In this document: positions 25,522 to 27,757 of the stretch, in pieces | How positions within the stretch are numbered: the stretch's first letter is position 1 | Layout of the letters: each line of letters opens with the position of its first letter | DNA from: an uncultured Ruminococcus sp. | GTDB taxonomy: Bacteria; Bacillota; Clostridia; Oscillospirales; Ruminococcaceae | DNA: 64,000 nucleotides | Direction: 5' to 3' | NCBI GenBank assembly: GCA_944388405.1 | Contig: CALXIQ010000016.1 | Span: forward strand, 1 to 64,000 | The notes under the pieces: model-generated | What the model saw: only the letters and a program-made list of their open reading frames with translations | The model's database searches: none | What the model was told of the DNA's origin: nothing | Program-made: the position numbers and the translations under genes

Positions 25522-25573
25522 TACCCCCAAGCAACGTCTGCCGCCTTTCAGCCGATTTTTATCGAAAAAAGGT

Positions 25574-25602
25574 TTGACAATTAAATTCGCTTGTGATATA
25601 AT
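25574..25602 (+). promoter_or_regulatory. Consensus promoter of the MATE exporter gene
   Basis: TTGACA, 17-bp spacer, TATAAT, a full match. The expected start of transcription near 25609 leaves a leader of about 250 bases before the ATG. Confidence 0.9.
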
Positions 25603-25608
25603 AACCTT

Positions 25609-25850
25609 GAAATGAAGTGCTGACGCACTTGACAGAACTTTCTGTTCCCGGTTTGCTTTGCAAATCATTGGGGGAACATTTTATCATGTTAAGGAACCGC
25701 CTTGCGAATCTTTTTATGATACAAATATTAAAAATAATTTGCTTGCCGCCGGGTAAGCTGAAAGGCATTGACTTCGTATCGTTAGGCCGCAGAAGATACG
25801 AAACCAATGCCTTTATTGCTGCCCGAAAAATCGTATGCAGGCGTTTATAG
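25609..25850 (+). promoter_or_regulatory. Highly structured leader RNA ahead of the MATE gene
   Basis: Three hairpins are visible. H1: AAGTGC-TGAC-GCACTT (25615-25630). H2: TGTTCCC (25643-25649) with GGGAACA (25672-25678), enclosing TTTGC-TTT-GCAAA (25652-25664). H3: AAAGGCATTG (25761-25770) with CAATGCCTTT (25805-25814), enclosing TTCGTATC (25773-25780) with GATACGAA (25795-25802), an 18-bp stem broken by one internal loop. ACAGA/TCTGT at 25632-25645 competes with H2. The ribosome binding site follows H3 by ~37 bases. No known riboswitch class was recognised. Confidence 0.6.
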
Positions 25851-25860
25851 GGAGGTTTTT

Positions 25861-27201
25861 ATGGCATCTTCAGGTTGTTTTCGGGATTTTGTCAAATATT
25901 CGTCTTTAAATGTATTGGGAATGATAGGGCTTTCATGTTACATATTGGCTGACACATTTTTTGTTTCAAAGGGGCTTGGTACAAACGGACTGGCTGCACT
26001 TAATCTGGCGATTCCCATTTACAGCTTTATTCACGGCAGCGGACTTATGATAGGCATGGGCGGAGGAACCGCATACTCAATTTACTCCAGCCGCCGGGAG
26101 CATACGTCCGCTAACCGTGCTTTTACCAATGCAGTATATCTTGCCGCCGCTTTAGCTGTGGTTTTTGTGCTGACAGGGGTTTTCTTTTCGGAGACTATAA
26201 CCGATCTGCTGGGGGCGGACGATGACGTATATGATATGACCAAGACCTATTTGCAGGTAATTTTGCTGTTTGCCCCCGCTTTTCTGCTTAACAACGTGCT
26301 GCTTTGCTTTGTGCGTAACGACGGCGCTCCTCAGCTTTCAATGGCGGCGATGATTGGCGGAAGCTTATCAAACGTAATACTTGACTGGGTATTCATCTTC
26401 CCCTGTCAAATGGGCATATTCGGAGCGGTTTTTGCAACGGGGCTTGCTCCCATAATCAGCATGATTATACTGTCGCCCCATTTTATCCGCAGAAAAAATC
26501 GCTTCCACTTTACAAAATGCCGTCCCTCGGGAAAACTTGCGGGCAGGATTTTTTCGGGTGGAGTTCCATCGCTGATAACGGAAGTTTCCTCGGGAGTGGT
26601 TATAATCGTATTCAACGCAATTATACTGAAGCTTGAAGGCAACGTAGGCGTTGCGGCTTATGGAGTTATTGCAAACATTTCCTTGGTTATTATCGCAATA
26701 TACACGGGTATAGCGCAAGGTATTCAGCCTATTATCAGCAGAAGCTATGGGCAAAACAATATTTCAGACATCAATGCAATACTTCGTTATGCGCTTACCG
26801 CCATGCTGATATTCTCAGCGGTTATTTACGCTTTGGTATTTTTCGGAGCTTCACAGATAGCAAGCGTCTTCAACAGCGAAAACGACCCGCTGCTGCAAAG
26901 CATTGCCGCTCAGGGCTTACGACTGTATTTTATTGCCTGTCCATTTGCAGGCTTCAACATTATTATTTCGGTATACTTTACCTCTACCGAACGGCCTCTG
27001 CCTGCCCATATAATTTCCCTGCTGCGTGGTTTCATTGTGATTATCCCCATGGCGTTTCTGCTTTCAAGCGTCGGCAAGATACTCGGCGTATGGTGCGCTT
27101 TTCCTGCCACCGAACTGCTTGTGGCGATTACAGGGTTTATATTTTGGGCTTTTATCAGCAAAAGCCGCAAGGCGGTCAAACAACAGAGTGACGTTATTTA
27201 A
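25861..27201 (+). CDS. MATE-family multidrug/organic cation exporter
   Basis: A 446-residue exporter with about twelve transmembrane helices, using a Na+ or H+ gradient. Family features include the start of each half: 'LGMIGLSCYILADTFFVSKG' and, later, 'SLVIIAIYTGIAQGIQPIIS', plus 'GSLSNVILDWVFIFP' in the first half. It belongs to the MepA/NorM-like branch. The start at 25861 is preceded by GGGAGGTTTTT; an in-frame upstream extension to 25807 would run into the leader hairpin and is rejected. The structured 5' leader suggests ligand- or translation-controlled expression. Substrate unknown. Confidence 0.92.
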   Translation: MASSGCFRDFVKYSSLNVLGMIGLSCYILADTFFVSKGLGTNGLAALNLAIPIYSFIHGSGLMIGMGGGTAYSIYSSRREHTSANRAFTNAVYLAAALAVVFVLTGVFFSETITDLLGADDDVYDMTKTYLQVILLFAPAFLLNNVLLCFVRNDGAPQLSMAAMIGGSLSNVILDWVFIFPCQMGIFGAVFATGLAPIISMIILSPHFIRRKNRFHFTKCRPSGKLAGRIFSGGVPSLITEVSSGVVIIVFNAIILKLEGNVGVAAYGVIANISLVIIAIYTGIAQGIQPIISRSYGQNNISDINAILRYALTAMLIFSAVIYALVFFGASQIASVFNSENDPLLQSIAAQGLRLYFIACPFAGFNIIISVYFTSTERPLPAHIISLLRGFIVIIPMAFLLSSVGKILGVWCAFPATELLVAITGFIFWAFISKSRKAVKQQSDVI

Positions 27202-27333: not shown

Positions 27334-27362
27334 TTGACATTTTGGTAAATCCGATGTATAAT
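27334..27362 (+). promoter_or_regulatory. tRNA operon promoter P1
   Basis: TTGACA, 17-bp spacer, TATAAT; first of two tandem consensus promoters 80 bp apart that drive tRNA-Thr-Tyr-Ala. Confidence 0.85.
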
Positions 27363-27413
27363 AATTAAGCTGTCTGATTTTTGAGAAAAAATTCAGCAAT
27401 TCAGAAAAAGCTA

Positions 27414-27442
27414 TTGACAAGGCTTTGCAATTATGATATACT
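27414..27442 (+). promoter_or_regulatory. tRNA operon promoter P2
   Basis: TTGACA, 17-bp spacer, TATACT, ending 27 bases before tRNA-Thr. Confidence 0.88.
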
Positions 27443-27468: not shown

Positions 27469-27544
27469 GCTGGTGTAGCTCAGTTGGTAGAGCAGCTGAT
27501 TTGTAATCAGCAGGTCGGGGGTTCGAGTCCGTCCACCAGCTCCA
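27469..27544 (+). tRNA. tRNA-Thr (anticodon TGT)
   Basis: 76 bases with encoded CCA. Acceptor GCTGGTG pairs with CACCAGC; anticodon stem CTGAT/ATCAG around loop TTTGTAA (TGT); T-arm GGGGGTTCGAGTCC. Confidence 0.96.
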
Positions 27545-27556
27545 TAATTTGTTTTT

Positions 27557-27640
27557 GGGAGAGTTCCCGAGTGGCCAAAGGGGGCAGACTGTAAATCTGT
27601 TGCATTTGCTTCGATGGTTCGAATCCATCCTCTCCCACCA
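27557..27640 (+). tRNA. tRNA-Tyr (anticodon GTA)
   Basis: 84 bases with a long variable arm as expected for bacterial tRNA-Tyr, and encoded CCA. Acceptor GGGAGAG pairs with CTCTCCC; loop CTGTAAA (GTA); T-arm GATGGTTCGAATCCATC. Confidence 0.96.
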
Positions 27641-27681
27641 TTTTGCATTCACCCTGTGAATGCTTTTTTAATACTTTCTCT

Positions 27682-27757
27682 GGGGCATTAGCGCAGCTGG
27701 GAGCGCATCACACTGGCAGTGTGGGGGTCAGGGGTTCGAATCCCCTATGCTCCACCA
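27682..27757 (+). tRNA. tRNA-Ala (anticodon GGC)
   Basis: 76 bases with encoded CCA. Acceptor GGGGCAT pairs with ATGCTCC (one G-T); anticodon stem ACACT/AGTGT around loop CTGGCAG (GGC); T-arm AGGGGTTCGAATCCCCT. Confidence 0.95.

Follow-up and report, generated by a model that had tools for sequence, protein, structure and literature searches.

A MATE exporter leader in an uncultured Ruminococcus sp.: a probable guanidine-IV riboswitch behind a native promoter that appears to have received a 123-bp element at its -10 box

What is a structured untranslated leader doing ahead of a MATE-family exporter gene? The question arises in the window, by which we mean the whole 64,000-nucleotide stretch of uncultured Ruminococcus sp. 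DNA analysed here (contig C16 of genome G000, hereafter the own genome), where a preliminary description made from the letters alone had proposed a riboswitch or attenuator. Our analysis points, with considerable confidence, to a guanidine-IV riboswitch behind the native promoter of the gene, with a mobile 123-bp element inserted at the extended -10 box of that promoter (Table 1).

Table 1. Features of the MATE leader and its gene, with positions in the window
Feature	Position	Strand	Evidence or remark
Native MATE promoter, TTGACA + 17-bp spacer + extended -10 TGATATAAT	25574..25602	+	12/12 consensus letters; -35 TTGACA at 25574-25579, -10 TATAAT at 25597-25602, TG preceding TATAAT
Probable inserted 123-bp element: AACCTTGAAA...P1, three internal hairpins, guide ACATTTTATC, terminator-like hairpin, decayed right core GATACAAA (GATATAAT in sisters)	25603..25725	+	11 own-genome copies; empty site in congener G008
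Element P1 stem and the hairpins that it encloses	25611..25679	+	Two P1 pairs broken in the window copy
Putative internal guide segment, with ATTTTATCAT inside, complementary to the -10-type cores at both ends	25680..25692	+	Complementarity seen on related copies
Terminator-like hairpin and T-run of the element	25693..25719	+	-4.6 kcal/mol here, -6.0 to -8.7 in four other folded copies
54-codon upstream ORF, start created inside the window's element copy	25686..25850	+	ATG compared with sister copies
Guanidine-IV riboswitch (by structure and gene neighbours)	25738..25823	+	P1 25741-25758 (GCTTGCC-GCCG-GGTAAGC); P2/terminator hairpin 25761-25814, apical loop CGTTAGGCCGCAGAAG
MATE-family exporter gene	25861..27201	+	Pfam MatE PF01554, 7.8e-41; ATG at 25861 is the downstream limit of the untranslated leader

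Two parts in one leader

The promoter that the preliminary description called full-consensus does match at all 12 letters, with a TG ahead of its -10. The structured leader of about 240 untranslated nucleotides was also borne out: at 252 nt up to the ATG it folds to -83.2 kcal/mol, against -61.1 (sd 4.5) in 200 dinucleotide shuffles (z -4.95), none of which does as well (0/200). All three of the hairpins described are present, namely AAGTGC-TGAC-GCACTT (6 bp with a TGAC tetraloop), a compound pair at about 25634-25668, and a long hairpin (25761-25814) interrupted by an internal loop and capped by an apical loop of 14 nt. The competing ACAGA/TCTGT helix, from which two exclusive folds had been proposed, can likewise be drawn in the window, but it is not a conserved switch, since the sister copies of the repeat described below have other letters at these places.

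The three hairpins belong to two unrelated things in series: hairpins 1 and 2 are part of an inserted repeat, and hairpin 3 is part of the native leader that follows it. In the congener G008, the orthologous MATE (77% identical) is preceded by TTGACA-17-TGGTATAAT and then at once by the native leader. A single composite riboswitch or attenuator with exclusive folds spanning both halves would agree with the folding of the whole leader, which beats every shuffle, and with a minimum-energy fold in which long-range pairing joins the two halves. Against this, the first half is wholly missing from the orthologous G008 leader and recurs ahead of ten other genes, and the second half stands without the first in the other five leaders of our first alignment. 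On the evidence of the empty site in G008 we reject the composite, to which we would give hardly any credence. The proposal of a riboswitch or attenuator before the MATE gene accordingly holds for 25738-25823 and fails for the upstream half with its first two hairpins, a mobile repeat absent from the congener's leader.

A leader-peptide attenuator was rejected as well. The ATG of the 54-codon ORF is, as far as seen, confined to the window copy, and as it does not appear in sister copies of the element the ORF is probably accidental. Further along the window, at 27334-27442, another promoter of full consensus (TTGACA-17-TATAAT), accompanied by a near-perfect one, lies just before a cluster of three tRNA genes at 27469-27754.

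The downstream half and the guanidine-IV class

The motif had been said to match no nameable class. Its downstream half belongs to a described one: its structure and the genes beside it and its relatives mark 25738-25823 as a guanidine-IV riboswitch, ordinary for that class, with guanidine as its predicted ligand. This half is kept in the leaders of G008 and G015, where sequence changes preserve the pairing. A pattern, CCGCCGGGTAA...RTTAGGCC, matched in four of 394 genomes of the order, representing four families (control 0), and in the three other pattern-positive genomes the RNA precedes the same MATE family, once with a PPOX gene in between. A covariance model of the riboswitch leader (R2) found matches in 18 of 398 genomes of the phylum. 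Of 28 matches, four were set aside before alignment (three antisense, plus L167); in the 24 aligned leaders 94.7% of helix cells are paired and two-sided changes number 178, compared with 50 in shuffles (0/500), figures that lean towards the structure of the covariance model to which the alignment was fitted. Covariation over homologous leaders, the check suggested in the preliminary description, was found for the riboswitch half. Outside the model's structure, a pseudoknot between the P1 loop (R-C-C) and the P2 loop (G-G-Y) pairs in 24 of 24 leaders; its R-Y pair is G-C in 12, A-U in eight and G-U in four, with two-sided changes in eight of the 24.

All six folded leaders have a strong 3' stem and most have a clear U-run; the run that follows P2 in the window copy is imperfect (CCTTTATTG) and may make for weak termination there. 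The second loop, AGG(C/U)C...G.AG, is near-invariant among the aligned leaders. The conserved second-loop nucleotides G66, U67 and G72 of the L. lactis RNA are needed for binding (PMC7736828, sections cited here); by our own mapping of positions, U67 seems to be C in the window, compensated by a G in the P1 loop. Following the published mechanism, as given in the cited portions of PMC7736828 and PMC11611296, the 3' hairpin would terminate transcription without ligand, and with guanidine the kissing of the P1 and P2 loops would prevent completion of the terminator, so that the exporter is made.

The genes after 20 matches outside the own genome, identified by Pfam for a subset and by eye for the rest, are MATE (seven), PPOX (five), SMR (two), PnuC (two), radical SAM (two) and PPDK (one); the remaining match is weak and unassigned. 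The motif GGAM-1 or mepA, which is guanidine-IV (Lenkeit et al. 2020, PMC7736828), shares with our leaders the two hairpins, the loop-loop pseudoknot and the 3' hairpin as intrinsic terminator, as well as an association with SMR (sugE), MATE and PnuC transporter genes, mostly in Firmicutes. By comparison with what the cited text of that paper describes, the window copy has its 5' side interrupted by the inserted element, and PPOX is a frequent neighbour here. PPOX-like (Nim-type) genes (L142:1624-2106, L149, L151, L152, L164, L167) stand directly after guanidine-IV-type leaders in five of the 20 matches, and one stands before the MATE gene in G326; the word pyridoxamine is absent from the main text of both PMC7736828 and PMC9788692.

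Could the downstream half instead be Gd4v, a gut-enriched variant with no assigned ligand? The general architecture is alike, MATE genes accompany both classes, and the gut enrichment of Gd4v (PMC9788692, parts cited) finds an echo in gut-type record titles on several relatives. The extra terminator hairpin D2 of Gd4v is missing here, though, and neither the window nor the other 23 rows have an added hairpin in the apical loop. SMR exporter genes, which by the cited account in PMC9788692 never go with Gd4v, follow close relatives; a transaminase (PRK07324), found downstream of over half of Gd4v representatives according to the same account, does not occur among the genes after the 20 matches, most of them judged by eye. 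The loop Gs that we mapped ourselves to the tested positions are G here. We regard Gd4v as improbable and keep to guanidine-IV proper.

The preliminary description had also allowed for a known Rfam family that would already explain the leader. Rfam 15 gave no such match: in the window only tRNAs reach the gathering score, with chance-level matches below it, and in the loci tried, SMR- and PnuC-associated members included, there was no family for either the elements or the riboswitch leaders.

A repeat at extended -10 boxes

The upstream half of the leader is one copy of a dispersed repeat. BLAST of 25540-25870 against the own genome gave 12 matches; reading these together with a covariance model built on nine copies (R1), we count 11 distinct elements, the two other R1 matches in this genome being the antisense of one copy and a weak match at E 4.3. 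A full copy spans 123 bp between hexamers and runs, after TGN-TATAAT, through AACCTTGAAAC, the hairpins, GTTTCAAGAACATTTTATCG and TTTTAAGGAATCGCCTTGCGGCTCTTTTTATGA to a second TATAAT, which in the window copy has decayed to TACAAA. The elements are non-coding, with a hexamer-to-hexamer length of 70-129 bp, and have no terminal inverted repeats (left end AACCTYRAA, right end TTTTATGNTATAAT), all inverted repeats being internal. All 11 lie directly upstream of a gene and in the same orientation as that gene; in the ten other than the window copy the start codon follows 20-58 bp past the right hexamer (taking an Asp23-like ORF for L006). Response regulators, a second MATE, a PrmA-like methyltransferase, an aldo/keto reductase, a sugar kinase, an oxidoreductase and others stand behind these copies, genes that read as unrelated and apparently form no functional regulon.

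Comparison with G008 places the insertions. At six of the eight G008 loci examined (MATE, L003, L004, L005, L009, L010) there is just one -10, its distance from the -35 unchanged and the sequence on either side colinear, where in the own genome two -10-type cores flank the element. The -10 at these empty sites is TGNTATAAT five times and TGCTATTAT once (hexamer TATTAT). The comparison covers eight of the 11 loci, with L002, L007 and L008 having no close G008 orthologue; the upstream region of L011 could not be aligned by eye, the orthologue fetched for L006 was the second gene of an operon, and orthologues of the further copies were retrieved with one chimeric protein query. One -10 in the congener against two cores here indicates that the element inserts at extended -10 boxes and leaves the host -35 and -10 ahead of it.

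The flanks of further insertions point the same way. At least four of the six TTGACA letters lie 16-18 bp before the left TATAAT in 34 of 41 non-tandem insertions, compared with 15% in shuffled flanks, and TG stands ahead of N in 37 of 42 under the script's own tandem grouping; for the count of 41, rows L118, L074, L041 and L055 were sorted anew by hand as tandem or non-tandem. Judged by these letters, the insertion targets are sigma-A promoters. Extended -10 boxes are common and genuine in the own genome, as sites of the form TTG-17-TGNTATAAT number 172 against four in a reversed control.

Whether the element chooses among such boxes is less clear. In 30 of the 41 non-tandem cases (hand-corrected) the host has the same N ahead of the left TATAAT as the element has in its own core, where about 12 would be expected from 93 G008 promoters counted by eye (binomial 9e-9), a concordance that is only suggestive, as the copies are related and the hosts differ. 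At MATE, L005, L004, L009, L010 and L003, in that order, N is G, C, A, C, C, G in G008 and A, T, A, A, A, T in the own genome, so that a conversion of N during insertion is no less possible than a choice of target.

The family is thinly spread. Under strict filters R1 found no copies in 15 other genomes of the genus; among 60 relatives it found 15 in G030 (another genus of the same family) and four in G059 (another family of the same order). A pattern of ends, guide and terminator occurs in five of 394 genomes of the order (reversed control 0/394) and, among 84,980 species genomes, in 33 stretches, 30 of them real, in 14 genomes. The three stretches that lack the element's structure were dismissed as chance (L060 and L078, from Campylobacteraceae MAGs, and L086, from C. 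uliginosum), and L136 was also dropped before elements were counted. Nearly all of the 14 carriers are labelled Oscillospiraceae, Ruminiclostridium, Clostridia, Clostridiales, Bacillota or Clostridium; a carrier that has been cultured is Clostridium sp. D33t1_170424_F3. One carrier MAG is labelled Bacteroides sp. (L071, L072, JAMPHV), for which mislabelling, contamination or real transfer are the options, and one Candidatus Aristotella.

Copies also occur in head-to-tail arrays that share a hexamer, on C9 and C1 of G030 and, with five units, on C8 of G171; a later copy has therefore entered the -10 of an earlier one or landed beside it. Several diverged units in a row precede ordinary genes (L056 on G171 C8, L217 on G171 C17, L204 on G059 C9), and one of these arrays lies between tilS-like and ftsH-like genes. 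At L204:2855-2968 (-) Rfam places a TPP riboswitch upstream of the element array and on the same strand, before a ThiT-like gene.

Short, non-coding, present in many copies and matched by empty sites, the repeat is an element whose movement we infer from sequence. Alternatively, it could be a vertically inherited resident family of cis-regulatory or small-RNA genes that the G008 sites lost by exact deletion between two -10 copies, which cores at both ends would permit. Its constant orientation with the downstream gene in the own genome, its covarying RNA-like structure and its terminator-like 3' end would all suit such a family. The unrelated downstream genes, the patchy distribution just described, the tandem arrays, and the difference between host core and element core in G059 (see below) speak against it; we think a resident family unlikely and continue with the mobile element.

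No enzyme that would mobilise that element was found in the searches made. An IS200-type transposase was rejected as its mobiliser because Y1_Tnp has no match in four of the five carrier genomes; the fifth (G314) has one broken gene, with no element alongside within 1.9 kb. By eye, no recombinase is apparent among the ORFs beside three arrays. Carriage by phages or plasmids was rejected for the copies tried, given that one type-b copy matched neither phages nor plasmids and one own-genome copy matched no plasmid; the element pattern matched no viral contig.

A putative guide facing two cores, and comparison with known elements

The structure of the element is conserved. Across 37 type-b copies (alignment A6), 93.7% of cells are paired in P1, in the terminator hairpin and in a helix between guide and right core; two-sided changes number 70, compared with 21 in shuffles (0/500), and slid partners give much less. 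Further pair types show no excess (18 versus 18.7 in shuffles). The guide can pair with the left core instead (97.7%). In a table that omits L009, which is shortened, and the window copy, whose core has decayed, all 55 real elements have in their right TGNTATAAT an N complementary to the guide base, and each of the four bases occurs there. In addition, GGAATAAT cores go with GTTCC guides and GGTATAAT cores with GTACC guides in nine of nine cases.

In G059, right core TGGAATAAT accompanies GTTCC in the guide and right core TGGTATAAT accompanies GTACC, and among the printed cases, which cover several loci, TGGAATAAT elements stand behind a host core of TGGTATAAT or TGCTATAAT. Since host core and right core differ here, the right core is the element's own and not a target-site duplication; left and right N also differ in four of nine tabulated copies of the own genome. 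A third form in G059 (L206, L211, L212, L213) has a core around GATTGAATAACC and, by eye, a matching internal TTGAATCATACC; it has longer variable stretches before the right core and shares the genome with TATAAT- and GAATAAT-core elements.

The complementarity between guide and core, and their covariation, suggest recognition of the target or of the ends by base pairing of the folded strand. We tentatively propose, as a possibility that falls short of our preferred belief, that these miniature mobile elements form a class of their own. They would use the sigma-A extended -10 as attachment site, recognize it through a base-pairing internal guide, enter 3' of the hexamer, use the host promoter to make a transcript of their own, end it with their own terminator and supply the gene with a new -10. 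On this reading the target could be reprogrammable, as the guides match whether the core is TATAAT, GAATAAT or GATTGAAT.

In the lineage studied here, the 123-bp element would have entered the MATE promoter directly 3' of TATAAT. Elements can be transcribed as short RNA because the host -35 and -10 are left intact ahead of them, and this structured RNA would end at the element's own terminator hairpin; the new extended -10 (TATGNTATAAT) at the right end, at the distance from the start codon given above, could drive the displaced gene. In the window, the MATE transcript would start at the left promoter and read through a dead element into the riboswitch, the left promoter being the likely mRNA start in view of the broken P1 pairs, the weaker terminator and the dead right core of this copy. 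The locus would then be a natural case in which the leader of a riboswitch gene was lengthened by 123 nt with its promoter preserved.

In these Clostridia the leaders of many genes can pass for riboswitch candidates because of the structured mobile repeat inside them. If the idea of a guide is right, the repeat is a small nucleic-acid-guided mobile element with a defined target of 8-9 bp, and if it belongs to a class of its own, such elements could spread through promoters at little cost. To our knowledge, a promoter-invading repeat placed exactly at the -10 hexamer, facing the gene and maintaining guide-target complementarity is undescribed; no description of the element was found in open PMC texts, and it appears not to be described in print.

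Elements of the IS200/IS605 type insert 3' of a short fixed sequence without duplication, have hairpins near their ends and carry an internal guide that pairs with the cleavage site. Our element resembles them in its insertion 3' of a fixed sequence without duplication and in its hairpins near the ends, and its putative guide, which covaries with the core, may be a further likeness; it differs from them in that four of five carriers lack a Y1 transposase and two long cores of 8-9 nt share a single guide. The pneumococcal repeats BOX, RUP and SPRITE, compared by description only, are likewise small interspersed repeats with RNA-like structure, SPRITE being terminator-like; as characterized in the cited part of PMC3049150 they are overrepresented between convergent genes, and no placement at -10 boxes is given there. 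Correia elements and other prokaryotic MITEs, as treated in the portions of a review cited here (PMC10969869), are also short, non-coding, multi-copy and found upstream of genes, can supply promoters, and are structured when transcribed. In contrast to these, the element described here targets the -10 box itself, does so without terminal inverted repeats, owns its right core, and in its own genome keeps a constant orientation with the gene that follows.
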